From NCBI RefSeq assembly GCF_001713395.1, contig NZ_CP016452.1:1860001-1924000 (forward strand): a stretch of DNA of 64,000 nt, read 5' to 3'. Numbering within the stretch: position 1 is the stretch's first letter; every line of letters starts with the position of its first letter. This DNA is from Sinorhizobium sp. RAC02. GTDB taxonomy: Bacteria; Pseudomonadota; Alphaproteobacteria; Rhizobiales; Rhizobiaceae. A model generated the notes under the pieces. It did not search any database. It saw only the letters and a program-made list of their open reading frames with translations, and was not told where the DNA came from. Both the position numbers and the translations under genes were made by a program. Below, piece after piece: positions 46,922 through 64,000 of the stretch.

Positions 46922-47254
46922 ATGCCCAAGTTCATCACAATCGGATATGGAGACGCGGCCGACTACAACCGCACGACCCAGGCTGTCAGAGACGCCGCGC
47001 ATGCCCAGGACGCTAAATTAAGATCCGAAGGCGCTGTGATAGGGATCGCCGGCACACCGGTCCAAGTTCGCAATCCAGAGGCTATTGGCGTGGAAACCCG
47101 CAATGGACCGTTCATGTCATCCGCCTTGCCGATCGCCGGTTTCGCCATCATCGAGGCCGCCGACTTGGGCGAAGCTATCAAAAAGGTTTCGGGCGTACCC
47201 TGTGCAGTTGCGCATGGCGTCGTTGAAGTTTGGCCATTGAAAGAGGCAATCTAA
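46922..47254 (+). CDS. YCII-related domain protein
   Basis: The 110-residue protein starts MPKFITIGYGDAADYNRTTQ and has HAQDAKLRSEGAVIGIAGTP, GFAIIEAADLGEAIKKVSG and AVAHGVVEVWPL. This matches the YCII/DGPF fold found in small enzymes related to dehydrochlorinases and muconolactone isomerases. No catalytic prediction is safe. GAAAGGAGACGCGACA precedes the ATG, which fixes the start; a longer frame from 46808 is unlikely. Confidence 0.8.
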   Translation: MPKFITIGYGDAADYNRTTQAVRDAAHAQDAKLRSEGAVIGIAGTPVQVRNPEAIGVETRNGPFMSSALPIAGFAIIEAADLGEAIKKVSGVPCAVAHGVVEVWPLKEAI

Positions 47255-47983
47255 TCCGAGCCGCAACGTGTTCAGGGAAAGCTCCCATCAACCGACCCTG
47301 CGGTGAGAACGGATCATGTAACGCCTCCAGTGAGCCCGACATCTCCAGCGTTTCCCGTCCACCCGCGACCAGATCGCCAACCTCTTTCACATTCCCCACC
47401 ATGAAATCGCATCCGAGGATTGCCGCGGACTGAGAATCGGAGTCACTGTCACACGCGGTGCTGCTCTCAAAGCAGGACGCTCCAGCGAGACGTCTCATAT
47501 CATGGGGCGGCCTTGCAGGCAGTAAGCGCTACTCTACAATAGGACTTGCCGGTGTGTTCAGCACCTTCGCGGCCGATGTCCAGCAGCTCTATCTGGATAT
47601 CGGCCAAAAGCGAACCGCCCCCCTACATCGCCATCAAGACGGCCAGAGAAACTCAAGCAACGGCTTTTTAGCTTGGAGCCGAGTGCCGCATTCGACGTTG
47701 CCCTTTCTCCTGGACGTCATCCAGCTCAGATTGAGTAGGATGGGCTCTGGATTCCTTTATTTTCGTTTGTCTTTTCGGGAACGCCGGTTTCCATTATTCC
47801 CTGACAAACTCCAGGAAGGGTGAACCGTCCGGCTGGCCAAAATCTTGATATACGGTTCAACGCTGCCCTTGTCCCGTCCGGGAACGTCGCTTCCCCAGCG
47901 CAGCTCCATCGCGAGGCGTAGAAAACAGACGAAACCGCGCAATCTTTCGATGCGCGGCTCCATTTTGTTTGATAGCTACCCGG
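47255..47983. other. Long non-coding stretch of unknown content
   Basis: These 729 bp contain only short frames with no family features or convincing ribosome sites. A minus-strand frame at 47178-47498 reads DLVAGGRETLEMSGSLEALH, a phrase I associate with remnants or antisense frames near rhizobial mobile elements. I do not recognise a complete element or terminal repeats. It separates plus-strand small genes from the minus-strand permease. Confidence 0.45.
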
Positions 47984-49768
47984 CTAGGCCGGGAGCTGGA
48001 AGTAGGCGTTGGCGGCGAGGACGACGGCGAGGCCGGCGGCGAGCGCTGCATAGGGCAGGATGCCGGCTTTCTTGACGCCCAGATCCTGGCCGACGAGACC
48101 GAGGTCTTCCATGGCGCCGGCCGGGAATTTTCCACCGTCACGCACATAGTGGCGATAGGCGAAGACCGGCAGGATCAGGGCAGCGAAAATGAAGCCGACC
48201 CAGAGCGCGTTGGAGTAACCCCAGACCTTCGCGCCGGCGCCGAGGAACAGCGCGTTGACGAAGGCGAGAACGGTGTTGAGGCCGATCAGCCAGGTCGGTG
48301 CTTTCCAAGGACGCGGGATATGGCCGGAATCCATGCGGTGGATCCAGCCGGCATTGAGGTTGAGGAAGTTGAAGATGATGTAGCCGACATTGGAGACGGC
48401 CAGGACGAAGAAGTAGCCGGCCACGTCGGAGGCGATGGCAAGCAGAATGAGGTTGAAGGCGAAGTCGGTCCACATTGCGCGGGTCGGCGCGCCATGTTCG
48501 TTGACGTGGTCGAGATACTTCGGAAGCCAGCCGTCCTTCGAGCCCTGATAGAGGGTGCGCGACGAGCCGGCCATTGCGGTCATGATGGCGAGGAACAGCG
48601 CCATGATCATCAGGAGAACGAGGATCTGCGTGACGATCTGGCCGCCATGGACGAGGCTTGCCAGCGCTTCCGCGACACCAGTGCCATCGACTATGCCGGG
48701 GGCGAGCATGCCCGCATGGCCGAGAACGCCCTGGAAGGTGAAAGGAATGAGGAAGAAGAACAGGCAGCAGAGAAGGCCGGAATAGAAGATCGCCTTGAAC
48801 GTATCGGTTTTCGGGTTCTTCAGTTCGCGGGTGTAGCAGACGGCCGTTTCAAAGCCGTAAGTCGACCAGGCGGCGATATAGAGGCCGCCGAGGAACAGCG
48901 TCCAGCCGCCATTGCTCCACACACCGTCGATGCCGGAATAACCGGCCGTCGGCGGAACGAGGTTGGTGACATTGGCGCTGTCGATCTGGCCGGAGAAGAT
49001 CGGGTAGAGGCCGATGACGAGGAGCGGCAGCAGGACGATGAGGGCGAGCCATTTCTGGACGTTTGCCGTTCCCTGGATGCCGCGATGCTGGATCGCGAAG
49101 ATGACCAGCATCAGGATGCCGCCGATGACGAAGGTGGCGTTGAGGTTTGCCGTGGCAAGGAACGGAATGTCGAAGGTGAGCAGCGACCAGTTGCGGATCG
49201 CCGGTGTCAGGGCCGCAACGGCATCGGTCGACAGCAGGGCCGAGATGGCATCCTGCGGTGTCTTGCCGGCATTGGCGGCAAGCCATTCGACGACGCGGGG
49301 GCTTTCCGCCGTCAACGTTGCCATATTGGCAGTGACCCATTCCATGACGGCCGGGGACGTGGCGCCGGGAATGGGGAACAGCGCATTGAGGATATAGCCC
49401 GCCGCGATGGCGCAGCCGAGCGACAGAACCGGCGACCAGGCGAACCAGTTGCACCACACCGAGAGCGGCGCGATGAATTTCGAGTAGCGCAGCCAGGCAG
49501 TGGCGCCATAGATCGAGGCGCCACCCGATTTGTTGCCGAACATGCCGGCGATTTCGGCGTAGGTGAAGGATTGCAGGAAGCCCATCACCATGGAAATGAT
49601 CCAGACCACGAAGGCGAGCTTGCCCGTCGTGCCTGCAATGCCGCCGATGGAAAACAGCACGAGCGGGGGCACGCCGGCGGCAACCCAGAATGCCCCTTTC
49701 CAGTCCAGCGCACGAATCAACCCCGTGCCCGAGGTTGCCGATCCCTCGGTCTCAACGATAGATGCCAT
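47984..49768 (-). CDS. APC-superfamily permease, candidate methylamine/TMAO or amino-acid carrier
   Basis: The 594-residue protein has about 12 hydrophobic helices. It starts with an APC-type first helix (AFWVAAGVPPLVLFSIGGIA), keeps YAEIAGMFGNKSGGASIYGA, and has GLYIAAWSTYGFETAVCYTR in the middle, a pattern of amino acid/polyamine permeases. A long periplasmic loop lies near residues 125-190. The start MASIVETEG is used, because an upstream frame adds 44 charged residues crossing the promoter. It is divergent from tdm across 294 bp that probably hold both promoters. Uptake of TMA, TMAO or a glutamylated intermediate is inferred from context. Confidence 0.88.
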   Translation of the reverse strand: MASIVETEGSATSGTGLIRALDWKGAFWVAAGVPPLVLFSIGGIAGTTGKLAFVVWIISMVMGFLQSFTYAEIAGMFGNKSGGASIYGATAWLRYSKFIAPLSVWCNWFAWSPVLSLGCAIAAGYILNALFPIPGATSPAVMEWVTANMATLTAESPRVVEWLAANAGKTPQDAISALLSTDAVAALTPAIRNWSLLTFDIPFLATANLNATFVIGGILMLVIFAIQHRGIQGTANVQKWLALIVLLPLLVIGLYPIFSGQIDSANVTNLVPPTAGYSGIDGVWSNGGWTLFLGGLYIAAWSTYGFETAVCYTRELKNPKTDTFKAIFYSGLLCCLFFFLIPFTFQGVLGHAGMLAPGIVDGTGVAEALASLVHGGQIVTQILVLLMIMALFLAIMTAMAGSSRTLYQGSKDGWLPKYLDHVNEHGAPTRAMWTDFAFNLILLAIASDVAGYFFVLAVSNVGYIIFNFLNLNAGWIHRMDSGHIPRPWKAPTWLIGLNTVLAFVNALFLGAGAKVWGYSNALWVGFIFAALILPVFAYRHYVRDGGKFPAGAMEDLGLVGQDLGVKKAGILPYAALAAGLAVVLAANAYFQLPA

Positions 49769-50062
49769 AAACAGTCTCCTCGACCAGTTTTTGCCGTGAA
49801 GCGCGTTTGCGCGCGTTCCCAATCTGATGGTTCTCGCTGCGGTTTTTCCGCTGGATGGCGCCTGCGTTTTCGCAGTGTCACCACCTGTTCCCGTTTGCAA
49901 TTTCGCGACCGCAACTTATTCTCATAGTGAATTTTTTTTTCTTCTCGGTCAAGTCTCTCTTTACTTTTCGGGACCTCCCGTAGGATAGTTTTGCCATATT
50001 GCCGGTGCATAAAGCGGCCCCTCCAGGGCAACGAAACGACCGCGCGTTGGGTGGGAGCTGAG

Positions 50063-52432
50063 ATGGACACTTCCGGACGATTTGCAGGCACCCTGATGCC
50101 GCCGAGACCCAGTACCATTCTGCGGCCAGGCATGCCGGCGCTGCCGGCCGGCGTCGAGCGCTATCGCGTCAAGGGACGTGGCACGACCGTGGTCAAGGTC
50201 ACAGCCGGCGACCGGGTCGTCATCAAGGATGTCGAAGGCGGACAACTCTGTGAAGTGAGCTTTGTCGATGCTGGCGGCCGGTTCAACGCGGCGGGGCTCG
50301 GCGTCGCGTTTTCGCGATCCGCTGATGGTCTTCAGGAAATTCTCGGGCGGGACGAAGACAGCGCACGACGGACGCTCGCCGCATTGAAACGGCGCAATAT
50401 CGACCCTGCGGGCGCTCAGGCGCTGGTGCTGTTCGGGGAAAGCTCCTCGCCAGGTGCCTCGGCCGAAATGGCGATCGCGCTGGACGGCCTGCTGATCGTC
50501 GCAGCTCCGGCGCCACCGATGGACGCGGAAGCGCAAAACACCGCGACTGCGCTCGAGCTGCGCGTCACCCGCTCGACGATCGAACGCGCTTACGAGCAGA
50601 TGTTGCCCGAGCCGATGGCCGATCCGATACAGGATCTGCGCATTCAGGCGGCGCGCGCTTCGGCCTATTTCGTGCGGGCCGGCGAGTTCATTCAGATCAT
50701 CGATGTTTCAGGCCGGCAGTGTACGGATTTCCAGGCTTTCTCGGCCCGCAAGGTCGACAAGGGACTGGATCTCGCGCTCGATGCGACGGTGACGCGCACG
50801 CTTCTCGGACGTAGCTACCCGATGCCCGGCCTGCCATCGAAGGCATTCGACCGGGATTTCGAGCCGCTGGTGGAGATCGTGCAGGATACGGTGGGGCGTC
50901 ATGATGCCTTCGCCACCGCCTGCAACTCGCGCTATTACGACGACATGGGCTATCCGGGGCATGTCAACTGCACGGATAACTTCAACCATGCGCTGGCGCC
51001 CTACGGCATCGCGCCGCGCAAGGGCTGGGAAGCGCTCAACTATTTCTACAACACCAACGTCGACCATCATAACCAGCTCTATCTCGACGAGCCCTGGTCG
51101 CGGCCGGGCGATTATGTGCTGATGCGGGCGCTGACCGATCTCGTCTGCGTCTCCTCGTCCTGTCCTGATGATATCGATGCGGCGAATGGCTGGGATCCGA
51201 CCGATATCCATGTCCGCACCTATTCGGACAAGGAGACATTCTCGCGCGCCGTCGCCATCCGAATGACCCCCGATGCAGAGCCCGAAATGACCCAGGAAAC
51301 CGCCTTCCATCCCCGCTTCTCAGGCCTGACCCGCAACCATGTGGAATATCGCGGCTACTGGTTGCCGAACCGCTTCAACAATGAAGGGCCGATCGAGGAA
51401 TACTGGGCCTGCCGCGAAAACGCCGTGGTGATGGACCTGTCGCCGCTCCGCAAATTCGAGGTGACGGGACCGGATGCGGAGGCACTGCTGCAATATTGCG
51501 TCACCCGCGATATCCGCAAGCTGTCGCCCGGACAGGTGATCTACACGGCCATGTGCTACGAGAACGGCGGCATGATCGACGACGGCACGGTGTTCCGGCT
51601 CGGCCAAAACAATTTCCGCTGGATCGGCGGCGATGACGTCAGCGGCATCTGGCTGCGCGAGCAGGCGGAGAAGATGGGCTACAAGGCCTGGGTGCGCTCC
51701 TCCACCGACCAGATGCATAACCTCGCCGTCCAGGGGCCGAAGAGCCGCGAGATCATCAAGGAGATCATCTGGACGGCACCGGCGCAGCCGTCGATTGGCG
51801 AACTCGAATGGTTCCGCTTCGCGGTCGGCCGCATCGGTCATTTCGAAGGCGCGCCGGTCGTCGTTTCGCGCACCGGCTATACGGGCGAACTCGGCTACGA
51901 GATCTTCTGCCATCCGAAGGATGCCCTTGCCGTATTCGATGCTGTCTGGGAGGCCGGCCAGAAGCATGGGCTGAAGCCGATGGGGCTGGAAGCGCTCGAC
52001 ATGGTGCGCATCGAGGCGGGGCTGGTGTTCGCCCACTATGATTTCTCCGACCAGACCGATCCGTTCGAGGCCGGCATCGGCTTCACCGTGCCGCTGAAAT
52101 CGAAGACCGAAGATTTCATCGGCCGTGAGGCGCTGATCAAGCGCAAGGAGAACCCGCGCTACAAGCTGGTCGGTCTCGACATCGACGCCAACGACGCCGT
52201 CGGCCACGGCGACACGGTGCATATCGGTCGGGCGCAGGTGGGCGTGATTACCAGTTCGACGCGTTCGCCGCTTCTGAAGAAGACGATCGCGCTGGCGCGG
52301 ATGGATGTCCTGCATTCGGAAATCGGCACCGACGTGGAGATCGGCAAACTGGACGGCCAGCAGAAGCGGCTGCCGGCGAAGATCGTGCCGTTTGCACATT
52401 ACGATCCGCAGAAGCTGAAGCCGAGATCGTAG
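50063..52432 (+). CDS. tdm: Trimethylamine N-oxide demethylase (aldolase)
   Basis: The 789-residue protein joins an N-terminal DUF1989-type domain (about residues 1-400) to a C-terminal GcvT-like folate domain (about 420-789). The first holds the likely zinc cysteines: C303 in VNCTDNFNH and C362 and C367 in LVCVSSSCPDD. The second has EEYWACRENAVVMDLSPL, VSRTGYTGELGYEIF and GLEALDMVRIEAGLVF. This is the Tdm architecture known from Methylocella and Ruegeria: TMAO is cleaved to dimethylamine and formaldehyde, with tetrahydrofolate as acceptor. The ATG at 50063 follows GGGAGCTGAG. Its 3' end abuts the convergent parE. It is the only plus-strand gene of the pathway. Confidence 0.93.
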   Translation: MDTSGRFAGTLMPPRPSTILRPGMPALPAGVERYRVKGRGTTVVKVTAGDRVVIKDVEGGQLCEVSFVDAGGRFNAAGLGVAFSRSADGLQEILGRDEDSARRTLAALKRRNIDPAGAQALVLFGESSSPGASAEMAIALDGLLIVAAPAPPMDAEAQNTATALELRVTRSTIERAYEQMLPEPMADPIQDLRIQAARASAYFVRAGEFIQIIDVSGRQCTDFQAFSARKVDKGLDLALDATVTRTLLGRSYPMPGLPSKAFDRDFEPLVEIVQDTVGRHDAFATACNSRYYDDMGYPGHVNCTDNFNHALAPYGIAPRKGWEALNYFYNTNVDHHNQLYLDEPWSRPGDYVLMRALTDLVCVSSSCPDDIDAANGWDPTDIHVRTYSDKETFSRAVAIRMTPDAEPEMTQETAFHPRFSGLTRNHVEYRGYWLPNRFNNEGPIEEYWACRENAVVMDLSPLRKFEVTGPDAEALLQYCVTRDIRKLSPGQVIYTAMCYENGGMIDDGTVFRLGQNNFRWIGGDDVSGIWLREQAEKMGYKAWVRSSTDQMHNLAVQGPKSREIIKEIIWTAPAQPSIGELEWFRFAVGRIGHFEGAPVVVSRTGYTGELGYEIFCHPKDALAVFDAVWEAGQKHGLKPMGLEALDMVRIEAGLVFAHYDFSDQTDPFEAGIGFTVPLKSKTEDFIGREALIKRKENPRYKLVGLDIDANDAVGHGDTVHIGRAQVGVITSSTRSPLLKKTIALARMDVLHSEIGTDVEIGKLDGQQKRLPAKIVPFAHYDPQKLKPRS

Positions 52433-52435
52433 CGT

Positions 52436-52726
52436 CTAGAGTTTCAGAAGGCGGACGCTCCTTGCGGGAACGACTGCGAGGATGAGGACGGTCTCTCCTG
52501 CCTCTTCGTAGAGGATGATGTGGCTCTGATGCGCATGCCGCCGCACACCTTCGCCGATCGACGGAGCGAGCCTTCCCATCTGTGGACGCGAGGCTATCAG
52601 CTCAAAACAGCGTACCAATTCTTCCTTGTAGCGACGGGCCTGGGCCAAGCCGAACATCTCGATGCCATCGAGAAACAGCGTGAGCAGGTCATCTTCGGCA
52701 CGCTCGGTCAGCGTGTAGCTAGTCAC
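52436..52726 (-). CDS. parE: ParE-type toxin
   Basis: The 96-residue RelE/ParE-fold protein has YTLTERAEDDLLTLFLDGIE, LVRCFELIASRPQMGRLAPS and HIILYEEAGETVLILAVVPA, the ParE layout; ParE toxins poison DNA gyrase. The start is a GTG overlapping the ParD stop by eight bases; the longer ATG frame would run inside parD. It is encoded directly after the antitoxin, and its stop is 3 bp from that of convergent tdm. Confidence 0.9.
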   Translation of the reverse strand: MTSYTLTERAEDDLLTLFLDGIEMFGLAQARRYKEELVRCFELIASRPQMGRLAPSIGEGVRRHAHQSHIILYEEAGETVLILAVVPARSVRLLKL

Positions 52727-52985
52727 GCACGATGCCCCTTGCCTTGGCAAGGCGCTCTGCATTTTCAAAGATCTCGTCGACGCTTTGTTTGCCGGGCTCA
52801 CTCGACCGGGAGTCCAGAACAATCTGGCGCAAGTCTTCGATCGTCAGCTCCTGATCTCTGCGGGAACGATCGCGGCGCACGAGATCGCGCACATAGTCGC
52901 TGGTGCTTGCATACTCGCCCTTGCTGATCTGGGCTTCGATCCATTCTTTCATCGGATCAGGTAGGGATATGGTCATGGTGGCCAT
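52719..52985 (-). CDS. parD: ParD-type antitoxin
   Basis: The 88-residue protein has a ribbon-helix-helix N-terminus (MTISLPDPMKEWIEAQISKG, then EYASTSDYVRDLVRRDRSR), the ParD/CopG form that binds its own promoter. The C-terminal half is the toxin-binding region. A second start three codons in (MTISLP) is possible. It precedes the toxin with an overlap, the standard order. An AAAAGGAG ribosome site sits upstream of the ATG. Confidence 0.92.
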   Translation of the reverse strand: MATMTISLPDPMKEWIEAQISKGEYASTSDYVRDLVRRDRSRRDQELTIEDLRQIVLDSRSSEPGKQSVDEIFENAERLAKARGIVRD

Positions 52986-53091
52986 GTGGGGAAACTCCTT
53001 TTGAGCACCCTATCATGGATAAGAATAAATCACAAAAACGCTTATTTTGAACGGCGCGATCCGTCGAAGCGTTGCGCTCGGAGTCGAAACT

Positions 53092-53691
53092 TCACCTCGA
53101 CTTGCCCCGCGCCGTCGCAATCTGCCGAGCGACCGCCTCGGAATCATTGGCAAGCGCCCGCATTTCCGAGGCGAGGACGGCGAAGCCGGCACCGGCTGTG
53201 CCGGCCCGCGCCGCCTCGATGCCTGCGTTGACGGCGAGCAATTTCAGGGAGCGCAGGGAATGCAGGATCTCGGCGGTGCGCGAGGCGGTCGCGCGCATGT
53301 CGGCGGTCTGTTCGTCGATGCGCTGATAGAGGGATTCGATGTTGACGATGCTGCCTTCGAGATAGAGCAGTTCCCCATCAGCGCCCCAGACGCCACCGCC
53401 GGTTTCCGTGACCCAGAGATAATGACCCTTATTGTGGCGGATGCGGTATTCCAGCATCCAGTCAGTGCGGCCTTCCAGTGCCTTGCCGACCACCTCGTCC
53501 ATCGCCGGCACGTCTTCCTCACACATGATGGAGGTGAACGTGCGCACACGATTGCCGACGATCTCGTCGACGGGATAGCCGAAGATCCGCTGGATGCCGT
53601 CGGTCATCTCCAGCATCGTGTAATGCTCGTCCGCCCGGCATCGATACAGAAAACCATTCATGCGACCGAGAACGCTGCTCAGAAAATCCAT
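53092..53691 (-). CDS. Small PAS protein with truncated chemoreceptor signalling tip
   Basis: The 199-residue soluble protein has one PAS_3-type domain (about residues 10-125: TDGIQRIFGYPVDEIVGNRV, MLEYRIRHNKGHYLWVTETG). It ends in the hairpin tip of methyl-accepting chemotaxis proteins (about 150-195: LLAVNAGIEAARAGTAGAGF, LASEMRALANDSEAVARQI). There is no membrane helix, HAMP domain or methylation helices, so only the descending half of the tip is present. It could be a stand-alone sensor that modulates a receptor array, or the remnant of a longer protein. It lies between parD and tmm on the same strand. Confidence 0.78.
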   Translation of the reverse strand: MDFLSSVLGRMNGFLYRCRADEHYTMLEMTDGIQRIFGYPVDEIVGNRVRTFTSIMCEEDVPAMDEVVGKALEGRTDWMLEYRIRHNKGHYLWVTETGGGVWGADGELLYLEGSIVNIESLYQRIDEQTADMRATASRTAEILHSLRSLKLLAVNAGIEAARAGTAGAGFAVLASEMRALANDSEAVARQIATARGKSR

Positions 53692-53819
53692 GGAAACCTG
53701 GCGATTGCTGGAGTGCGGAGAAGAGGAATATTGATCGGCTTGGGTGATATCCCGTTACTTAAAAGTATGAGCCGAAGACCAGGGACGTGGCCTTCGGCTT
53801 TGTCGTCGTCGAACCAAAA

Positions 53820-55157
53820 TCAGTTCTTCAGATAGACCTCGAGCGTATCGTCCATAGCCTCAAGCCACGGCGTATGATGCTTGGGTGCGAGGGTGCCGGT
53901 CATCAGCGACTTGTAGGCGTTGTCGCGGAAGCCCATGATGTTCTCGGCCTTGTGGTGCTCCCATTCCATGAAGGTCTTGTTGGTGCCCTCGACGTCGAAC
54001 TTCGGATAGTCGGTGTGCTCCAGAAGCTCGATAACATAGTCGCCCTGGAACCAGATCATCTGCTCGGCATCCTCAAGCGTTTCCTCACGGGCGCGCCATG
54101 TGTCGAAATGCGCCTTCATCTCCGCCTTCGAGGGCAGGTCGATGCGGCCCATGATGACGTCGCGGGCATACCAGGCCTGGGCGTCGAACATGTTGAAGGT
54201 GTAGAACTGGTCCTGCATGCCGATATACATCAGCTGCGGATTGTCCTCGTAGACGACGCCCTTGTAGAGGTTGTCGGACCACAGGCGGTTGGCGGTCTTC
54301 AGGCGCAGGTCGTCCGGCAGGAACGGGAAATGGTGGAGGTAACCGGTGCAGAGGATCAGGGCGTCAACCTCCTTGGTCGATCCGTCGGCGAAATGGGCCG
54401 TCTTGTTGACGAGTTTCTGCAACAGCGGCCGCTCCTCGAAGCGCTCCGGCCATTTGAAGCCCATCGGCTTGGAACGGTAGCTCGTGGTTACCGATTTTGC
54501 GCCGTATTTCCAGCATTGCGAACCGATGTCCTCGGCCGAATAGCTGCGGCCGACGATCAGCACGTCCTTGTCCTTGAATTCCAGGGCATCGCGGAAATCA
54601 TGGGCATGCAGCACGCGGCCGCCAAAGGTCTTTACGCCTTCGAAATAGGGCACGTTCGGTGTAGAGAAATGGCCGGAGGCGACGACGACATAGTCGAATT
54701 CTTCGTCATACATCCGGTCCTCAACGCGGTTGTGCGCCGTCACCGTGAACTTCTTCGTCGCCTCATCGAACCGCACCATGCGAACGGGTGTCGAGAAGCG
54801 CACCCATTTGCGCACGTCGGCCTTTTCGACGCGGCCTTTGATATAGTCCCACAGCACCGCACGGGGCGGATAGGAGCCGATCGGCTTGCCGAAATGTTCT
54901 TCGAAGGAGTAGTCGGCGAACTCCAGGCATTCCTTGGGTCCGTTCGACCAGAGATAGCGGTACATGCTGCCATGGACGGGCTCGCCATATTCATCGAGCC
55001 CGGTGCGCCAGGTGTAGTTCCACAACCCGCCCCAATCGGCCTGTTTTTCGAAGCAGACCACTTCGGGGATTTCCGCACCCTTCTGGGCGGCGGACTGGAA
55101 GGCTCTCAATTGAGCAAGGCCCGATGGCCCTGCGCCGATCACCGCTACTCTGGTCAT
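53820..55157 (-). CDS. tmm: Trimethylamine monooxygenase
   Basis: The 445-residue flavin monooxygenase oxidises trimethylamine to TMAO with NADPH and oxygen. The FAD motif is G8AGPSG13, the FMO fingerprint FxGxxxHxxxF is F178-G180-H184-F188, and the NADPH loop GRSYSAED is at residues 203-210. The acidic [11 protein letters not shown] start region and [20 protein letters not shown] near the end fit bacterial Tmm rather than other FMOs. The gene follows dmmDABC on the minus strand with a 45-bp gap. Product TMAO is the substrate of Tdm, encoded 1.4 kb away. Confidence 0.95.
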
Positions 55158-55202
55158 ATGTGTCTGTTCCCTTTTATATCGTTGTAAGCTTTGTGAAGAC
55201 CT

Positions 55203-56243: not shown

Positions 56244-56259
56244 CTGTCCGGTCCCTTAT

Positions 56260-57225
56260 CTACAGTTGAAGAACGAGTTGCTGGCCCTTGAACCGCGAGA
56301 CGCAGATCATGACCTTCTTGCCGGATGCCTTTTCCTCGTCCGACAGGTAGATGTCGTTGTGCTGCAATGTGCCATCACAGGAGAGCACCTCCGTCTCGCA
56401 CTGGCCGCAGGCGCCGCCGCGACACATGTAGGGCGCATCGCAGCCATGCGCCTCGGCCGCTTCCAGAATGCTCTGGTGCTCGCCGACGGTCATGTGGATG
56501 TTGGACCTCTCGAGGAAGACCTGGAACGGCAGGCCGGCGGGCGGCGCAAGGAACCGTTCCGAATGCAGGTTTTCCTTCGGCCAGCCGGCTTTCAGCCCCG
56601 TCATCAGCACGCCGTCGATCATGCCGGCGGGCCCACAGACATAAAGATGCGTGCCGAGCGGCTGGTTGTCGGCGATCTCCGCGACGGGGATGAATGACTT
56701 TTCCTCGTCGACATAGATCTTGATACGCCGCGGGCCGTAGCGGTCGAGCAATTGCTGCCAGTAGGCGCCGTGCGAGCGCGAACGGATGGCGTAGTGCAGT
56801 TCGAACGCGATGTTATCGCGGTTGAACTGCTCCATCATGGCGATGAACGGCGTGATGCCGATGCCGCCGGCAATCAGGATGTGCTTGCGTCCGCGATGGT
56901 CCGGCGCGAAGAGGTTGACCGGCTGGCTGACGGTCAATTGATCGCCGGGGCGCACCTGTTCGTGCATGAAGATCGAGCCGCCGCGGGAATTGGGAACCCG
57001 GAGCACGCTGATTTCATAGGCACTGTTGTCGTCGGGGGTGGACATCAGCGAATAGGGATTGCGCCGCAGCAGTCCGTTGTCGTTCATCGAGACGACGACA
57101 TGGGCACCGCCGGAGAAGAACGGCATGGGATGGCCGTCCAGCCGCTCGAAGCGGAAGCGTTTGACCATATCGGTCACCTGCGTCACCGCGGCGACCCGCA
57201 CAGGCATGTCTGTGTTGAGGCTCAC
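56260..57225 (-). CDS. dmmB: Dimethylamine monooxygenase reductase subunit DmmB
   Basis: The 321-residue phthalate-dioxygenase-reductase-type protein has an FMN site (RNPYSLMSTPDD), an NAD(P)H site (HILIAGGIGITPFIAMM) and a C-terminal plant-type [2Fe-2S] cluster (DAPYMCRGGACGQCETEV, with a later Cys in VLSCDG). It transfers electrons from NAD(P)H to the heme subunit DmmC. The start overlaps the dmmA stop by ATGA, and dmmC follows 16 bp downstream. It carries all three redox centres needed for the reductase job. Confidence 0.93.
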   Translation of the reverse strand: MSLNTDMPVRVAAVTQVTDMVKRFRFERLDGHPMPFFSGGAHVVVSMNDNGLLRRNPYSLMSTPDDNSAYEISVLRVPNSRGGSIFMHEQVRPGDQLTVSQPVNLFAPDHRGRKHILIAGGIGITPFIAMMEQFNRDNIAFELHYAIRSRSHGAYWQQLLDRYGPRRIKIYVDEEKSFIPVAEIADNQPLGTHLYVCGPAGMIDGVLMTGLKAGWPKENLHSERFLAPPAGLPFQVFLERSNIHMTVGEHQSILEAAEAHGCDAPYMCRGGACGQCETEVLSCDGTLQHNDIYLSDEEKASGKKVMICVSRFKGQQLVLQL

Positions 57226-57827
57226 GGGAACATCTCCTCAGGTTCTGGGGCCGTGCCCGGTTCTTCTGCATCGATGTTGACGCCCTGGAAGGCGCCAAGC
57301 CGTCTGGAGTAATGGTCGCGCACCAGAAGCGGCAGACCGCAATGGCTGCAGGCAAAAGGACTGGTCGTCACATTGTCGGTGATGCCCTTGCAGTGCACGC
57401 ATTGCACCCGCCGCGCCGTCGAGCCGCGATGTTCGGTATGGATCGAATGGTAGTCGATGCCGTATTCGATCGCCACCTGCATGATCTGGCCGATAAAACC
57501 CTCGGTGCCGGCAATGGAGAGCCGCGTTCCCATACGGGCCTGCTCAAGACAGGCGCGCAGGCGAAAGAGAAGCGGCTGAAGCGTCGGCGCCTGCCAGAAA
57601 ACATCCGGCGAGAGCGCCGAAAGCGCGATGTCGTAGGCCTTGGGGGCCGCGCCCGCCGCCAGATAGAGGATTTCCGACTTTGCCAAGAAGTCGTTGCCCT
57701 TTGCCCCGACCTGATCGATCAGGGCCTGGGCCCCTTCGCCCTCAAGGACGAAGAGGTGGCGTTTGGCATGGGGATCAATGTCGAGCCCCTTATATTCCGG
57801 CCTGCTTTTGATCCCTTGTACGAGCAT
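57222..57827 (-). CDS. dmmA: Dimethylamine monooxygenase subunit DmmA
   Basis: The 201-residue protein has an N-terminal region with SRPEYKGLDIDPHAKRHLFV and EGFIGQIMQVAIEYGIDYHS, and a C-terminal zinc-ribbon-like part (VQCVHCKGIT, FACSHCGLPLLVRDHYSRRL) with two CxxC pairs. This fits the DmmA-like family required for dimethylamine monooxygenase activity. The gene lies between dmmD and dmmB with a 4-bp overlap to dmmB. Its molecular job is not settled; folate or electron coupling has been suggested for related proteins. Confidence 0.88.
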   Translation of the reverse strand: MLVQGIKSRPEYKGLDIDPHAKRHLFVLEGEGAQALIDQVGAKGNDFLAKSEILYLAAGAAPKAYDIALSALSPDVFWQAPTLQPLLFRLRACLEQARMGTRLSIAGTEGFIGQIMQVAIEYGIDYHSIHTEHRGSTARRVQCVHCKGITDNVTTSPFACSHCGLPLLVRDHYSRRLGAFQGVNIDAEEPGTAPEPEEMFP

Positions 57828-57837
57828 GCCGATATCC

Positions 57838-58971
57838 TCAGCCTTGCGCCGTCCGTTTTGTCTTCTTCGGATCGTCGAAGGTGATCGTGTGGGCGATGGC
57901 CGGCGCGTTGACGGTCTTGCCCTTCACTTCGAGCTTGGTGCCTTGCACCGCATAGGGAACGTCCACGCGCATGATCGCCATGGAGCGGTTGGTGAGCTTG
58001 GAGTAGGACGGGCAGGTGATGACGCCCACCTTCTTGTCGCCGGCCCAGACCTCGTCGCCAAGATCGGTCGGACCATCGGCCTCGACAAGCAGGCCGAAGA
58101 TCTTGAAGCGCTCCTTGCCCTTGAGGCGAGCATGTTCCTCGGCGCCGCAGAAGCCGGTCTTGCCGGGGCTGACGGTGAAATCGAGGCCGAGCTCCCACAG
58201 GCTATCGCCGGGCTGCTCGTTGGCGAAGGGATACATCTGCGAATTGTCGTAGGGGTAGAACAGCAGGTAGCTTTCGACGCGCAGCATGTCGAGAACGCTG
58301 AAGCAGACGGGGATGATGCCCATCGCCTTGCCTTCATCGACGATGCGGTCCCAGACCATGCCGGCATCCTGGCCGCGCACGAAGATTTCATAGCCGCGCT
58401 CGCCGGTATAGCCGGTGCGCGAGATCATCACCGGCGCGCCGAACAAAGTCGTCTGCATGTGATGGAAATATTTGAGGTCGCGGATGCCGGGCACGTATTT
58501 TTCGAGATAGTCGACGGCGAGCGGGCCCTGGAGGGACAGGTCGTGCAGGTCGTCATCGAACAGCACGGCGCAATTGCGGCCCTGTGCCTGCTTGACGATT
58601 TCCTCGAAGCCGGAGCCCGAGCCATGCACCAGCATCCAGGAATTGGGACCGGTGCGGTAGACGATGCAATCGTCGGTGAAGTGGCCGCGCTCGTTGAGCA
58701 TGCAGGCATAGACCGACTTGCCGGGATAGACCTTCGTCATGTCGCGGGTGGTGATATATTCCAGAATGGCGATCGCATGCGGGCCGACGAGATGGACCTT
58801 CTTCAGGCCCGAGACATCCATGATGCCGGCCTTGGTGCGCACGGCGATGTGCTCTTCGTAGATGTCCTTGTCGTAGGTCCAGGCGGTTCCCATGCCGCTC
58901 CAGTCTTCGAGGTTCGATCCGAGTGCCCGATGCCTGTCTGCAAGGGCGGAAAAACGCCAGCTAAGACTCAT
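57838..58971 (-). CDS. dmmD: GcvT-like folate-dependent protein DmmD
   Basis: The 377-residue aminomethyltransferase-family protein has VRTKAGIMDVSGLKKVHLVG, VYACMLNERGHFTDDCIVYR, SRTGYTGERGYEIFVRGQDA and a C-terminal barrel with PGKTGFCGAEEHARLKG. The GcvT fold binds tetrahydrofolate, so it probably captures formaldehyde from dimethylamine oxidation as methylene-THF. The gene starts a run dmmD-A-B-C with 10 bp to dmmA. An AT-rich 110-bp gap (58972-59081) to folD could hold a separate promoter. Confidence 0.88.
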   Translation of the reverse strand: MSLSWRFSALADRHRALGSNLEDWSGMGTAWTYDKDIYEEHIAVRTKAGIMDVSGLKKVHLVGPHAIAILEYITTRDMTKVYPGKSVYACMLNERGHFTDDCIVYRTGPNSWMLVHGSGSGFEEIVKQAQGRNCAVLFDDDLHDLSLQGPLAVDYLEKYVPGIRDLKYFHHMQTTLFGAPVMISRTGYTGERGYEIFVRGQDAGMVWDRIVDEGKAMGIIPVCFSVLDMLRVESYLLFYPYDNSQMYPFANEQPGDSLWELGLDFTVSPGKTGFCGAEEHARLKGKERFKIFGLLVEADGPTDLGDEVWAGDKKVGVITCPSYSKLTNRSMAIMRVDVPYAVQGTKLEVKGKTVNAPAIAHTITFDDPKKTKRTAQG

Positions 58972-59081
58972 ATTCTCGTTCCCATTTTCTTTTGCGGAAT
59001 ATTTATTTCCTGAGTATATCGCCGCTGCTCAAAGTCGCAAGAGTGTTAAAACTGGTATCTCCATTGTTCTTTGGCATCAGT

Positions 59082-59987
59082 CTAGAAACGCGGCGGTTCA
59101 CGACCCGATGCGCGGTAGGCTGCGATCACGGTGTTGGCCATCAGCATGGCGATCGTCATCGGTCCGACACCGCCTGGAACCGGCGTGATCGCGCCGGCAA
59201 CCTCTGAAACCTCGTCATAGGCGACATCGCCCACCAGACGGCTCCTGCCCTCGCCGCCCTCCAGCGCATCTATGCGGTTGATGCCGACATCGATGACGGT
59301 GGCACCCGGCTTCACCCAGTCGGCTTTCACCATTTCAGCACGGCCGACGGCGGCAACGAGGATATCCGTGTGACGGCAGACGTCCGCGAGGTCCTTCGTG
59401 CGCGAATGCGCGATCGTCACCGTCGCATTGGCATGGAGCAGCAATTGCCCCATCGGCTTGCCAAACAGGTTGGAGCGGCCAATGACGACGGCCGCCAGAC
59501 CCGTCAGGTCCTCGCCATGGATGGAGCGGACAAGGCGCATGGCGCCTGCCGGCGTGCAGGAAATCAGGCCGGTCGCCAGATCGCCGGTCGCAAGCTTGCC
59601 GGCATTGACCACATGCAGGCCATCGACGTCCTTTTCCGGCTTGATCGACTGGATGATCGGCTCGGCGTCGAGGTGCTTCGGCAGGGGCAGTTGCACCAGG
59701 ATGCCATGCACGGCGGGATCCGCGTTCAGCGAGGCCACCAGGCTTGCGAGGTCCCCTTGCGTGGTCTCCTCCGGCAGCGTGTGCTGGGTGGAGTTGAAGC
59801 CGCATTCCTTGGCCAGACGACCCTTGGCGCCGACATAGGTGTGGCTCGCCGGATCATCGCCGACGATGACGACCGCAAGCCCGGTCCTCACCCCTGCCTC
59901 ATCTTCGAGCGCCGAGGTCGCAGCCTTCACAGCCTCGATCACCGACGCCGCGACTTTCTTCCCGTCAATGCGCGTCGCACTCCCCAT
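59082..59987 (-). CDS. folD: Methylene-THF dehydrogenase / methenyl-THF cyclohydrolase FolD
   Basis: The 301-residue bifunctional enzyme oxidises 5,10-methylene-THF to methenyl-THF with NADP+ and hydrolyses it to 10-formyl-THF. The active-site Lys lies in [13 protein letters not shown], the cofactor loop is [16 protein letters not shown], and [16 protein letters not shown] ends the protein. In this block it handles one-carbon units from TMAO and dimethylamine demethylation. The start is 3 bp from the purU stop, so the two are coupled. A second, housekeeping FolD is expected elsewhere. Confidence 0.96.
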
Positions 59988-59990
59988 GGT

Positions 59991-60875
59991 TCACCCCATG
60001 CGCTCGGAAGCATAGGAGCCGGGGCTCGGCGGGAAGACGATGGTCTTGTTGCCATTCATAAAGGTGCGGTGGTGGATGTGGGCATGCACTGCGCGGGCCA
60101 GAACCTGGCTCTCCACGTCCCGCCCGATCGACACATAGTCCTCCGCAGACTGCGCATGCGTGATGCGCGCCACGTCCTGCTCGATGATCGGACCCTCGTC
60201 GAGATCCTCCGTCACATAGTGCGCCGTCGCCCCGATCAGCTTCACACCGCGCTCGAAGGCCTGCTTGTACGGGTTCGCACCCTTGAACGACGGCAGGAAC
60301 GAGTGGTGGATGTTGATGATCCGGCCCGACATCTTCTTGCACACCGCATCCGACAGCACCTGCATGTAGCGGGCGAGCACGATGAGTTCGGCACCAGACT
60401 GTTCCACCACCTCCATCAGCCGCGCTTCGGCCTGCGGCTTGTTCTCCTTCGTTACCTTGATGTGGTAGAAGGGGATGTCGTGGTTGACGATGACCTTCTG
60501 GTAATCGAAGTGGTTCGACACCACGCCGACGATGTCGATCGGCAGCGCGCCGATCTTCCAGCGGTAGAGCAGGTCGTTCAGGCAATGGCCGAAGCGCGAC
60601 ACCATCAGCAGCACCTTCATGCGCTCGTCGCTGTCGTTGAAGCGATAGTTCATACCGAAGGGCTTGGCGACCGGGGCGAATTCAGCCTTGATGTCCTCCT
60701 CCGATACGCCTTCCTGGGACAGGAAGGTGAGACGCATGAAGAACAGGCCGGTTTCGAGATCGTCGAACTGCGACGAATCCGAGATGTAACACCCCTTCTC
60801 GGCGAGGTAGCCGGTGATCGCGGCGACGATGCCGCGGGTCGATTGGCACGATACTGTCAGGACGTGGCTTTTCAT
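59991..60875 (-). CDS. purU: Formyltetrahydrofolate deformylase PurU
   Basis: The 294-residue enzyme hydrolyses 10-formyl-THF to formate and THF, releasing folate for new demethylation cycles. An N-terminal ACT domain (VLTVSCQSTRGIVAAITGYL) precedes a formyltransferase-like domain with NIHHSFLPSFKGANPYKQA, GVKLIGATAHYVTEDLDEGP and the active-site His and Asp. The start MKSHVLTV follows AAAGAACCG; a longer frame to 60995 would overlap gmaS. It sits between gmaS and folD. Confidence 0.96.
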   Translation of the reverse strand: MKSHVLTVSCQSTRGIVAAITGYLAEKGCYISDSSQFDDLETGLFFMRLTFLSQEGVSEEDIKAEFAPVAKPFGMNYRFNDSDERMKVLLMVSRFGHCLNDLLYRWKIGALPIDIVGVVSNHFDYQKVIVNHDIPFYHIKVTKENKPQAEARLMEVVEQSGAELIVLARYMQVLSDAVCKKMSGRIINIHHSFLPSFKGANPYKQAFERGVKLIGATAHYVTEDLDEGPIIEQDVARITHAQSAEDYVSIGRDVESQVLARAVHAHIHHRTFMNGNKTIVFPPSPGSYASERMG

Positions 60876-60934
60876 CGGTTCTTTCCCGGTCAAACGATTG
60901 CCGAAGTGGCGTCTCTTTTCCGAAGCGCCAAGCC

Positions 60935-62242
60935 TCAGATATCGAGCGTCGTCTGCCGCTCCCAATCCGTGAAGTGCGATGCGTAGGCATTCCATTCCTG
61001 ATGCTTGAGCTTCAGGTAGGCGCTGGAGAAACCCTTGCCGAGCGTGGCCTTCAGGTCCTCGTCCTTGTCGTATTCCCTGAGCGCATCGAGCAGGTTCAGG
61101 GGCAGGCGCGGCGCGTCGGTGACGGTGTGGCCTTCCTTGTACATGTCGATGTCGTAGTGGCGGCCCGGATCGGCGTTTTTGCGAATGCCGTTCAGGCCGG
61201 CGGCGATGATGATGGCCTGCAACAGGTACGGATTGACGGCGCCATCCGGTAGGCGCAACTCGAACCGCCCCGGACCCGGAACGCGAACCATATGCGTGCG
61301 GTTGTTACCCGTCCAGGTCACCGTATTTGGCGCCCAGGTAGCACCGGAAATGGTGCGCGGCGCGTTGATGCGCTTGTAGGAATTGACCGTCGGATTGGTC
61401 ACTGCGGCAAGGGCCGACGCATGCTGCATGATGCCGCCGAGGAAGGTCTTGCCCTTGGCCGAAAGACCGAACGGCATGGTCTTGTCGGCGAAGGCATTGG
61501 TCTTGCCTTCCAGATCCCAGACGGAGATATGGGCGTGGCAACCGTTGCCGGTCAGGCCCTTGAAGGGCTTGGGCATGAAGGTGGCACGAAGGCCGTGTTT
61601 CTCGGCAACCGTCTTCACCATGAACTTGAAGAAGGAATGCTTGTCGGCCGTCTGCAGCGCATCGTCATATTCCCAGTTCATCTCGAACTGGCCGTTCGCG
61701 TCCTCATGGTCGTTCTGGTAGGGCTTCCAGCCCAGTTCCAGCATGTAATCGCAGATCTCGGCGATCACGTCGTAACGGCGCATGACGGCCTGCTGGTCGT
61801 AGCAGGGTTTTTCGGCCGTATCGAATTCGTCGGAAATCTTGCCGCCATCCGGTGCGATCAGGAAGAATTCCGGCTCGACGCCGGTCTTGACGCGAAGGCC
61901 TTCCTTGGCAGCTTCGGCGATCAATCGCTTCAGCATGACGCGCGGCGCCTGGTCGACCGGCTGGTCGTCCATCACGCAGTCGGCGGCAACCCATGCGACA
62001 TCCTTCTTCCAGGGAAGCTGGATGGCAGAAGACGCATCCGGAAGAGCAAAAAGATCGGGATGGGCGGGCGTCAGATCGAGCCAGGTGGCAAAGCCCGCAA
62101 AACCCGCGCCGTCCTTCTGCATATCGGCGATTGCTTCGGCCGGAACAAGCTTTGCCCGCTGGCCGCCGAAAAGGTCGGTAAAGCTGATCATGAAATATTT
62201 GATGCCACGGTCTTTGGCAAAGGTAGCAAGATCGAGTGTCAC
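60935..62242 (-). CDS. gmaS: Gamma-glutamylmethylamide synthetase GmaS
   Basis: The glutamine-synthetase-family enzyme joins methylamine to glutamate with ATP. I use the GTG at 62242, which has AAGGGGA about 6 bp upstream and gives 435 residues beginning (M)TLDLATFAKDRGIKYFMIS, the common GmaS start. An ATG at 62278 would add 12 residues. Catalytic regions are VEPEFFLIAP, DANGQFEMNW, NGCHAHISVWD and GPGRFELRLPDGAVNPYL. It is the entry step of the N-methylglutamate pathway and precedes purU and folD on the minus strand. Confidence 0.95.
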   Translation of the reverse strand: MTLDLATFAKDRGIKYFMISFTDLFGGQRAKLVPAEAIADMQKDGAGFAGFATWLDLTPAHPDLFALPDASSAIQLPWKKDVAWVAADCVMDDQPVDQAPRVMLKRLIAEAAKEGLRVKTGVEPEFFLIAPDGGKISDEFDTAEKPCYDQQAVMRRYDVIAEICDYMLELGWKPYQNDHEDANGQFEMNWEYDDALQTADKHSFFKFMVKTVAEKHGLRATFMPKPFKGLTGNGCHAHISVWDLEGKTNAFADKTMPFGLSAKGKTFLGGIMQHASALAAVTNPTVNSYKRINAPRTISGATWAPNTVTWTGNNRTHMVRVPGPGRFELRLPDGAVNPYLLQAIIIAAGLNGIRKNADPGRHYDIDMYKEGHTVTDAPRLPLNLLDALREYDKDEDLKATLGKGFSSAYLKLKHQEWNAYASHFTDWERQTTLDI

Positions 62243-62284
62243 TGTGTTCCCCTTTGGATTATTCAGACACTTTTTCAAGAAAAT

Positions 62285-62318
62285 GGCCGCCGCTGGCTTG
62301 GGAGATCAGACGACGGCC
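62285..62318. terminator. Hairpin between mgsC and gmaS
   Basis: ggccgccg at 62285-62292 pairs with cgacggcc at 62311-62318, with one mismatch and an 18-base loop. Plus-strand sequence after it has eight T (62323-62330), and on the minus strand ATTTTCTT follows. It may partly terminate mgsC transcripts ahead of gmaS. The long loop makes it weak. Confidence 0.4.
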
Positions 62319-62335
62319 GAAGTTTTTTTTAAGGG

Positions 62336-63664
62336 TTAGAAACCTCCCTTGCCGGGAATCCAGCTGGTGCCCGCAAGCGGCACCTGCGCCATGGCGGATG
62401 CCTCGATCGTCAGCGCGACGAGGTCCTCCGGCTCCAGATTGTGCAGATGATTCTTGCCGCAGGCGCGCGCGATGGTCTGAGCCTCGAGCGTCATCACCTT
62501 GAGATAGTTGGCGAGGCGCCGTCCGGCAGCAACCGGATCGAGACGCTTGGAAAGCTCCGGATCTTGCGTGGTGATCCCTGCCGGGTCCTTGCCCTCATGC
62601 CAGTCGTCATAGGCGCCGGCCGTCGTTCCGAGCTTCTGGTATTCCTCTTCCCAGTGCGGATCGTTGTCGCCGATGGCGACCAGCGCCGCCGTGCCGATGG
62701 CAACCGCGTCGGCACCCAGCGCCAAAGCCTTGGCGACGTCGGCGCCGGACCGAATGCCGCCGGAGATGATCAGTTGCACCTTGCGGTGCATGCCGAGATC
62801 CTGCAGCGCCTGGACGGCGGGGCGGATGCAGGCTAGCGTCGGCATGCCGACATTCTCAATGAAGACATCCTGCGTCGCAGCCGTGCCACCCTGCATGCCA
62901 TCGAGCACGACGACGTCGGCACCGGCCTTCACGGCAAGCGCCGTATCGTAATAGGGACGCGCGCCACCGACCTTCACATATATCGGCTTTTCCCAATCGG
63001 TGATTTCGCGCAGTTCCATGATCTTGATTTCGAGATCGTCCGGGCCGGTCCAGTCGGGATGGCGGCAGGCCGAGCGCTGGTCGATGCCCTTCGGCAGGTT
63101 GCGCATGTTGGCGACGCGGTCGGAAATCTTCTGGCCGAGCAGCATGCCGCCACCACCGGGCTTGGCACCCTGGCCGACGACGATCTCGATGGCATCGGCG
63201 CGCCGCAGGTCGCGCGGGTTCATGCCGTAGCGCGACGGCAGATACTGATAGACCAGCGTCTGGCTGTGGCCGCGCTCCTCGTCCGTCATGCCGCCGTCTC
63301 CGGTGGTGGTCGATGTCCCGGCAATCGTGGCACCGCGGCCGAGCGCCTCCTTGGCATTGCCCGAAAGCGCACCAAAACTCATGCCGGCAATGGTGATTGG
63401 GGTCTTCAGGATGATCGGCTTCTTGGCGTGGCGCGCGCCGAGCACGACGGATGTGTCGCATTTCTCGCGGTAGCCTTCGAGCGGATAGCGCGAGATCGAC
63501 GCGCCAAGGAACAACAGGTCGTCGAAATGCGGCACCTTGCGTTTGGTGCCGGCGCCTCTGATATCATAGATGCCGGTCGCCGCCGCGCGGCGGATTTCCG
63601 CCATCGTATAATCGTCGAAGGTCGCTGACTTGCGCGGCGGGGTATAGGGGTTGTGATAGCTCAT
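62336..63664 (-). CDS. mgsC: N-methylglutamate synthase subunit C (FMN glutamate-synthase-like)
   Basis: The 442-residue protein resembles the FMN-binding central domain of glutamate synthase: ITIAGMSFGALSGNAKEALG, STTTGDGGMTDEERGHSQTL, VGQGAKPGGGGMLLGQKIS, ADVVVLDGMQGGTAATQDVF and IISGGIRSGADVAKALALGA. In the N-methylglutamate pathway MgsABC makes N-methylglutamate from gamma-glutamylmethylamide or methylamine. It lies 15 bp downstream of mgsB. The short N-terminus lacks the cysteine-rich Fe-S region of full glutamate synthase, which may reside elsewhere in the complex. Confidence 0.93.
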   Translation of the reverse strand: MSYHNPYTPPRKSATFDDYTMAEIRRAAATGIYDIRGAGTKRKVPHFDDLLFLGASISRYPLEGYREKCDTSVVLGARHAKKPIILKTPITIAGMSFGALSGNAKEALGRGATIAGTSTTTGDGGMTDEERGHSQTLVYQYLPSRYGMNPRDLRRADAIEIVVGQGAKPGGGGMLLGQKISDRVANMRNLPKGIDQRSACRHPDWTGPDDLEIKIMELREITDWEKPIYVKVGGARPYYDTALAVKAGADVVVLDGMQGGTAATQDVFIENVGMPTLACIRPAVQALQDLGMHRKVQLIISGGIRSGADVAKALALGADAVAIGTAALVAIGDNDPHWEEEYQKLGTTAGAYDDWHEGKDPAGITTQDPELSKRLDPVAAGRRLANYLKVMTLEAQTIARACGKNHLHNLEPEDLVALTIEASAMAQVPLAGTSWIPGKGGF

Positions 63665-63679
63665 GAACGGGTCCCTGCC

Positions 63680-64000
63680 TTAGTACGCATCAGCGTTATC
63701 GATGTTGAAGTTGTAGAGCGTGCGGGCCGAACCGTAGCGCTTGAATTCTTCCGGCGAGACACCCGTGATGCCGGCTCTTTCCAGAAGCTCGGCAAGCAGC
63801 TTCAGATGCTTTGGCTTCATTTCCTTCTGGATGCAGTCGGCGCCGAGGCTCTTGACCTCGCCGCGCACGAACAACTTAGCCTCGTAGAGGGAATCGCCGA
63901 GCGCATCACCGGCATTGCCAAGCACCACCAGGTGACCCGACTGGCCCATGAAGGCCGACATGTGACCGATATTGCCTTGGACGACGATATCGATGCCCTT
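63680..64000 (-). CDS. mgsB: N-methylglutamate synthase subunit B, partial (5' end outside window)
   Basis: The visible 106 residues lead from the window edge to a TAG-type stop. They show the GXGXG-type right-handed helix of glutamate synthase: IDIVVQGNIGHMSAFMGQSG, HLVVLGNAGDALGDSLYEAK and LFVRGEVKSLGADCIQKEM. An internal ATG at 63961 (MSAFMGQ) lies within this repeat, so the true start is beyond 64000. MgsC follows in an apparent operon; mgsA is expected beyond the window edge. Confidence 0.9.
   Translation of the reverse strand, partial: KGIDIVVQGNIGHMSAFMGQSGHLVVLGNAGDALGDSLYEAKLFVRGEVKSLGADCIQKEMKPKHLKLLAELLERAGITGVSPEEFKRYGSARTLYNFNIDNADAY

Follow-up and report, generated by a model that had tools for sequence, protein, structure and literature searches.

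A predicted methylated-amine nitrogen-recovery island in a Shinella-like genome, with a PAS/mini-MCP gene next to tmm

Work on Ruegeria pomeroyi (Lidbury 2017, PMC5520151; Wang 2026, PMC13390433) and Paracoccus aminophilus (PMC4543880) has established the aerobic pathway by which bacteria recover nitrogen from trimethylamine (TMA) and trimethylamine N-oxide (TMAO), and a comparable gene set has been described for Aminobacter (PMC8235418). The stretch analysed here, referred to throughout as the window, comprises 64,000 nucleotides of Sinorhizobium sp. RAC02 (C3:1860001-1924000, in contig NZ_CP016452.1), a soil bacterium with a Shinella-like genome (6.63 Mb in three contigs, of which C3, at 2.22 Mb, is the second large replicon). 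Its right-hand part carries an island, about 24 kb overall and running past the window edge, with a complete gene set that very probably serves to recover nitrogen aerobically from TMAO, TMA, dimethylamine (DMA) and monomethylamine (MMA), a reading that covers the enzymatic pathway only. The pathway is already known and the rhizobial island is an ordinary further instance of it, one that recurs in rhizobia. Inside the island, next to tmm for TMA monooxygenase, lies pas, which encodes a short soluble protein combining a PAS domain with the hairpin tip of a methyl-accepting chemotaxis protein (MCP), called here the PAS/mini-MCP protein.

How does this locus compare with those already described? 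As published, the R. pomeroyi DSS-3 cluster (SPO1548-1588) shares tmm, tdm, dmmDABC, gmaS, mgs, mgd and an AraC-type regulator beside mgd, whereas its transporter is TmoX (PMC5520151) rather than the TmoP permease found here, and the host here is of a soil or rhizosphere type; the PAS/mini-MCP gene may be a further difference, going by the published descriptions of that cluster. Plasmid pAMI6 of P. aminophilus and the Aminobacter locus are described as sharing tmm, tdm or tmd, dmmDABC, the N-methylglutamate pathway genes and folD-purU (PMC4543880, PMC8235418), and Aminobacter shares tmoP as well (PMC8235418). Methylocella silvestris BL2 enters through the NCBIfam models matched by the TMAO permease and Tdm of the window, whose names carry 'Msil', and through the dmm homologues Msil_3605, Msil_3608 and Msil_3609 named in PMC5520151, which implies that dmmD there stands apart from dmmABC, a comparison made by description only. 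Finally, folD, purU, glxA and XRE genes are listed for marine Rhodobacteraceae clusters in a figure legend (PMC7574528), so that, going by that legend, neither the purU-folD pair nor the two regulators of the present island are new or set it apart from the marine clusters. A first-pass annotation, made from the letters of the window, had regarded such islands as known from Roseobacter and Methylocella, which holds, and had implied that the rhizobial setting is unusual; it is less so than that, the island being found also on Rhizobium plasmids and the comparable Aminobacter set being in print. Our literature search, which left most subscription journals outside and is hence weak evidence of absence, turned up no paper whose title is about a TMA island in rhizobia, and no PAS/mini-MCP protein.

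Gene set and proposed pathway of the island

Open frames of at least 90 residues were listed over window positions 44000-64000 and candidates were scanned against NCBIfam and Pfam; four enzymes (Tmm, GmaS, Tdm and DmmC) were compared with solved structures in the Protein Data Bank (PDB), and an adjoining stretch (L007, C3:1922001-1942000) was read for genes past the window edge. On the minus strand, from the right edge leftwards, the order is mgsB (cut by the edge), mgsC, gmaS, purU, folD, dmmD, dmmA, dmmB, dmmC, tmm, pas and a ParE-type pair, beyond which the left end is formed by tdm on the plus strand and then tmoP on the minus strand. The enzyme, transport and regulatory genes are as follows.

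47984..49768, minus strand: tmoP, APC-type TMAO permease (NF053774, 840.7 bits, cut-off 690); start probably 49768, set by the length of an annotated relative
50063..52432, plus strand: tdm, TMAO demethylase with DUF1989 and GcvT domains (NF053776, 1258 bits, cut-off 1100); ATG at 50063 read off the translation; best PDB match 9q59, a TMAO demethylase, 1059 bits
53820..55157, minus strand: tmm, trimethylamine monooxygenase (NF058570, 854.2 bits, cut-off 675); best PDB match 2xve, a bacterial flavin monooxygenase, 781 bits
55203..56243, minus strand: dmmC, haem-dependent dimethylamine N-demethylase subunit (PF11927); best PDB match 5lte, a haem-dependent oxidative N-demethylase, 507 bits
56260..57225, minus strand: dmmB, FAD/2Fe-2S reductase subunit (PF00111, PF00175, PF00970 and position)
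57222..57827, minus strand: dmmA (DmmA-family domain NF041259, 120.1 bits, cut-off 60)
57838..58971, minus strand: dmmD, GcvT-like (GCV_T, PF01571), probably for formaldehyde conjugation dependent on tetrahydrofolate (THF), a role proposed in Lidbury 2017 (PMC5520151)
59082..59987, minus strand: folD (NF010785, 485.7 bits, cut-off 396)
59991..60875, minus strand: purU (TIGR00655, 330.6 bits, cut-off 286); start probably 60875, from the length in annotated relatives
60935..62278, minus strand: gmaS, gamma-glutamylmethylamide synthetase (TIGR03105, 679.1 bits, cut-off 469.6); true start probably near 62242, from the length in annotated relatives; best PDB match 7cql, a type III glutamate-ammonia ligase, 628 bits
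62336..63664, minus strand: mgsC, N-methylglutamate synthase FMN subunit (PF01645, 298 bits)
63680..64000, minus strand: mgsB, GXGXG subunit (PF01493), split by the window edge
L007:2405-3370, minus strand: mgsA, glutamine amidotransferase
L007:3393-4382, minus strand: GlxA/AraC regulator (DJ-1/PfpI and HTH_18), divergent from mgd
L007:4392-9524, plus strand: mgd, soxBDAG-type, four subunit families side by side
L007:9564-10232 (window ~71564-72232), minus strand: XRE-cupin regulator

The idea that the calls are motif illusions is rejected for seven of these proteins (TmoP, Tmm, Tdm, DmmA, GmaS, PurU and FolD), which score above curated cut-offs, and for DmmC, which closely resembles a protein of solved structure. 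GmaS and the three Mgs subunits, the latter by domain and position, are all present in the island, and the 8.3 kb past the window supply mgsA, the GlxA/AraC regulator, the soxBDAG-type mgd set and the XRE-cupin regulator; the identity and order of the genes, the completeness of the set and its conservation are shown. All the genes named in the first-pass annotation are open frames lying roughly where it had placed them, borne out by family models, solved homologues and synteny. It was right about the presence of tdm, whose orientation is corrected to the plus strand, convergent with the rest, and mgsB stands as a gene, since its whole frame (L007:1680-2402) matches GXGXG, whereas the part within the window (63680-64000) has a sole, weak match (TIGR03122, 21.8 bits against a cut-off of 130.65). 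It had also pointed past position 64000 for mgsA and mgd, and both are there: the N-methylglutamate dehydrogenase genes, whose absence from the genome it had named as counter-evidence, begin 2.4 kb beyond the window end as the mgd set, which disposes of the idea of a broken island without mgd. It did not name the permease, nor the PAS/mini-MCP gene at 53092-53691, nor the ParE-type toxin gene and its presumed antitoxin at 52436-52985.

In the proposed pathway TmoP would import TMAO and Tmm would convert TMA to TMAO, from which Tdm would form DMA. DmmABC would then turn DMA into MMA, with DmmD and the GcvT domain of Tdm passing the methyl carbon to THF and with FolD and PurU carrying the one-carbon unit to formate. 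GmaS would put MMA onto glutamate as gamma-glutamylmethylamide, MgsABC would form N-methylglutamate, and Mgd would strip the last methyl group so that the nitrogen enters metabolism. Every gene fits this route, which is also the one the earlier annotation had drawn, including the passage of the one-carbon unit through THF to formate; FTHFS and a formate dehydrogenase alpha subunit are encoded in the genome. We infer these activities, like the regulation and the role of the PAS protein discussed below, from the genes themselves.

Several points weigh against so complete a reading. DmmB, DmmD and MgsC pass no equivalog model cut-off in the NCBIfam scan and owe their names to domain, position and relatives, DmmB, DmmD and the Mgs subunits being identified by domain and position, and the assignment of the soxBDAG-type set as Mgd rather than sarcosine oxidase is supported by context and orthology, not by a diagnostic residue. 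The genome encodes four soxA-family alpha subunits. The island one shares 71-93% identity with its counterparts in four relatives that also bear the island, but 40-63% with the other three of the genome, a pattern that favours Mgd over a generic sarcosine oxidase as the probable identity. The main physiological substrate of the island might also be a different one, with Tmm serving other amines or sulfides, Mgd other N-methylated compounds, and TMA turnover being a side reaction. Tmm-type flavin monooxygenases do accept other nucleophiles. Mgd has furthermore been cited in homarine catabolism, and tmaR-mgd without upstream TMA genes has been noted (Wang 2026, PMC13390433). We nevertheless consider this very improbable in view of the tmm-pas loci most similar to the window (the best 80 of 118 relatives in a collection scan, chosen for closeness and hereafter the closest 80), where tmm and each of dmmD, dmmA and dmmC come through the filter 78 times, dmmB 77 times, tdm 76 times and tmoP 75 times, a set best explained by the TMA/TMAO route.

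With the TMA/TMAO pathway as the preferred reading, the two regulators beyond the window, the GlxA/AraC protein in a TmaR-like position and the XRE-cupin protein, probably control the island. TmaR is described as the AraC master regulator of TMA catabolism, with a close clade of more than 44% identity to the R. pomeroyi protein (PMC13390433); here an AraC-type regulator adjoins the mgd operon, as expected of a TmaR member, and Paracoccus and Thioclava plasmids carry matches with 45-47% identity to it. The XRE-cupin protein is likely an island regulator. The position of its gene shifts: here and in Rhizobium sp. T136 it adjoins soxG, in Shinella oryzae it lies upstream of dmmD, in R. tropici it precedes mgsA, and in other genomes it is divergent beside tmm.

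The PAS/mini-MCP protein and its linkage to tmm

Two features are central to what follows.

53092..53691, minus strand: pas, soluble protein of 199 residues with a PAS domain and an MCP hairpin tip (PF08447 (PAS_3), PF00015)
53770..53799, minus strand: hairpin of 12 pairs followed by a T-rich tail in the tmm-pas gap, resembling a terminator or attenuator

The PAS/mini-MCP protein more probably than not serves as a signalling accessory of the pathway, conveying its metabolic or redox state, possibly to a chemosensory array. The MCP signalling domain (PF00015) is matched just at positions 50-93 of 172, so that the protein is classed as MCP-tip-like rather than as an MCP. It has no transmembrane segment, the best 19-residue Kyte-Doolittle mean being 1.02; some true MCPs are soluble. 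Both the PAS and the MCP domain are matched in all 34 aligned members (the window copy and 33 chosen from the closest 80 loci), and N155, E159 and R162, the N-x3-E-x2-R hairpin tip whose residues we take to be trimer contacts, are invariant throughout. Ten comparisons of pas give Ka/Ks values between 0.045 and 0.22, and the nine made for tmm, whose tenth copy was of a different length, give 0.05-0.13; pas is under purifying selection. The best solved matches to residues 123-195 are ungapped and are fragments of the Thermotoga TM14 receptor tip, 4jpb (90 residues) followed by 3ur1; the TM14 fragment is without a PAS domain, and its tip E and K are variable in the PAS family. By its title, listed among the datasets of PMC6746300, 4JPB is a ternary complex with CheA P4-P5 and CheW, and the genome holds two matches to the CheA dimerisation family PF02895. 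Taken together, the likeness to the TM14 tip and the CheA matches make it plausible that this soluble protein docks into receptor arrays as the sensor of a redox or flavin-linked signal in the cytoplasm, which would couple methylamine metabolism to chemotaxis. The split energy-taxis receptor CetA/CetB of Campylobacter offers a loose functional parallel (PMC9665402). In the AlphaFold model the PAS domain is fairly confident (block means 71-90) and the hairpin weak (42-56), with a mean pLDDT of 67.4 and a pTM of 0.58.

In 79 of the closest 80 loci tmm lies directly upstream of pas (105-236 nt between matched ends; the exception is L145), with dmmC past the filter in 78. Close orthologues number 11 in 199 Rhizobiaceae genomes (at least 312 bits, the next match scoring 44.7), and all 11 genomes have tmm above cut-off, directly adjoining in ten and about 15 kb off in G069. 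Where some 1.5 kb on each side could be read, at 30 of the 33 tmm loci in these genomes, pas occurs only where dmmC directly precedes tmm, in eight of nine such loci, the ninth being G069. On plasmids pas is found in 94 records (93 Rhizobium and one Shinella; 92 cover at least 80% of the protein) and a close tmm in 138, 95 of them Rhizobium, with no pas match outside Rhizobium and Shinella at E 1e-40. The pas-tmm linkage has a p of 5e-10, a statistic that ignores the kinship of the genomes. That the linkage reflects one clone is countered by the titles of the closest 80, which span Rhizobium, Shinella, Ensifer, Ectorhizobium, Pararhizobium, unplaced Rhizobiales and metagenome-assembled genomes, loci that are nevertheless related and picked for closeness.

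Might pas instead play no part in the pathway, as a passenger or as what is left of a longer chemoreceptor? A good deal weighs on that side. The gene is lacking from 22 of the 33 Rhizobiaceae genomes with tmm. Distant homologues (35-42% identity) occur in 12 of 297 genomes of the order, and 11 of the 12 fetched stretches are without tmm; among the neighbours read at five of the 12 are phage genes (portal, terminase), a glutathione transferase, a trypsin/PDZ protease and a haem-use protein. At positions 165 and 168, where the aligned TM14 tip has E and K, the family is variable (mostly T, and S or A), the window copy has S148 where 32 of 34 members have Y, and two of the 94 plasmid matches cover less than 80% of the protein. 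Given the hairpin between tmm and pas, pas may be transcribed apart or weakly; the region has ten such hairpins with a T-tail, where shuffled sequence gives 8.1 on average. The same criterion picks out 36 of 79 tmm-pas gaps, 48 fold energies of which range from -17.3 to -83.4 kcal/mol, values taken without a shuffled control; the promoter scan gave one site, below the shuffled mean of 3.3. Set against a passenger are the low Ka/Ks, the retention of both domains in every aligned member, and the adjacency to tmm in 79 of the closest 80 loci, which persists even where tmm is divergent (68-69% beside an 80% pas, L112 and L121). A truncated pseudogene is rejected, since the 34 members match over 191-199 residues, the open frames of 14 loci end alike and Ka/Ks is low; on the other side stand the two short plasmid matches and L151, where pas, like several neighbours, matches in two pieces, perhaps through an assembly error. 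A passenger or remnant thus seems to us the less probable case, though one of real weight, and a signalling accessory of the pathway the better one. A more specific form of the accessory reading, in which many rhizobial TMA islands carry a dedicated PAS/mini-MCP protein whose tip docks into the array while its PAS domain reports the turnover of the adjacent Tmm, so driving methylated-amine taxis of plant-associated bacteria, is a rather unlikely proposal.

The idea that the distant PAS homologues are also linked to tmm is rejected, as among the 12 fetched stretches only that of G312 has tmm nearby (5.5 kb), even though 10 of the 12 share a genome with tmm (Fisher 9e-7, with one genus counted six times; by genus, five of seven, p 0.009). 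In G312 (L206:7353-9428) tmm-tdm is followed by a full dCache_1 chemoreceptor and then by the distant PAS/mini-MCP gene, so that genes of chemoreceptor type stand beside TMA genes here for a second time.

Distribution and modular make-up in rhizobia

Tmm is found above cut-off in 33 of 199 Rhizobiaceae genomes and, at E 1e-150, in 57 of 297 genomes of the order. Plasmid records with a match to the 3.4 kb of DNA that span dmmB to tmm number 116, and Rhizobium accounts for 93. The closest relatives agree with the rhizobial setting that the first reading had seen in the neighbouring genes: the nearest of the closest 80 loci is that of Shinella kummerowiae (99% protein identity for both PAS and Tmm), and Shinella oryzae has 93.5% DNA identity over the 3.4 kb. 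The core gene order is common to pT136c of Rhizobium sp. T136, pRL11 of R. johnstonii 3841 and pRtrCIAT899c of R. tropici CIAT 899, which carry the same island, the PAS gene included, with the XRE gene at differing positions. On pRL11 there is no folD in place, pas is separated from tdm by minCDE and other genes, and the annotation of that region shows no ParE pair.

Among 54 loci with about 10 kb available upstream of pas, 32 have gmaS, purU, mgsC or folD there and 22 do not; the 26 further loci of the closest 80 have less DNA upstream, most ending 5.4-6.9 kb away. This split gives the island the look of two units, the TMA/DMA module (dmmDABC-tmm-pas-tdm-tmoP) and the MMA module (mgd-regulator-mgsABC-gmaS-purU-folD), which would be joined in some lineages. 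In Shinella oryzae the TMA/DMA module stands without the MMA module within 20 kb, and a 64.5% homologue of the island GlxA/AraC regulator lies elsewhere on the same replicon.

Individual genes also show histories of their own. A divergent tmm (67-69% identical to that of the window) occurs at L112, L121, L143 and L146-L150, where dmmC is 78-82% and pas 69-80% identical, which for L112 and L121 suggests replacement of tmm in place. A close Tmm is also found in 22 Acinetobacter plasmid records, 65-71% identical to the window Tmm among the rows listed. For purU there are four more copies in the genome, at C3:221200, C3:773730, C3:833831 and C1:3344658, with 93-97% DNA identity, which in two of the four extends into folD and ends inside it; the purU-folD pair looks like a cassette copied or gene-converted among demethylation clusters. 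Some of seven contig starts examined upstream of pas were read by eye as folD.

Between pas and tdm lie two further genes.

52436..52726, minus strand: ParE-type toxin gene (PF05016, 50.2 bits)
52719..52985, minus strand: presumed antitoxin of 88 residues, upstream partner of the ParE gene by position and overlap, with no Pfam match

The toxin gene is probably not part of the pathway. Open frames of similar size fill the same gap in Shinella oryzae, and in at least seven Rhizobium-type loci the pas and tdm matches are just 6 nt apart.

The full set of genes for recovering nitrogen from TMA and TMAO, which has been studied mostly in marine bacteria and methylotrophs, therefore recurs on the replicons of soil and nodule Rhizobiaceae, and its bearers include the well-used strains R. 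johnstonii 3841 and R. tropici CIAT 899. Within it the tmm-linked PAS/mini-MCP protein makes it possible to ask, in a concrete case, whether a chemosensory input can come encoded with a catabolic island, and down to what size a receptor tip is still able to signal.

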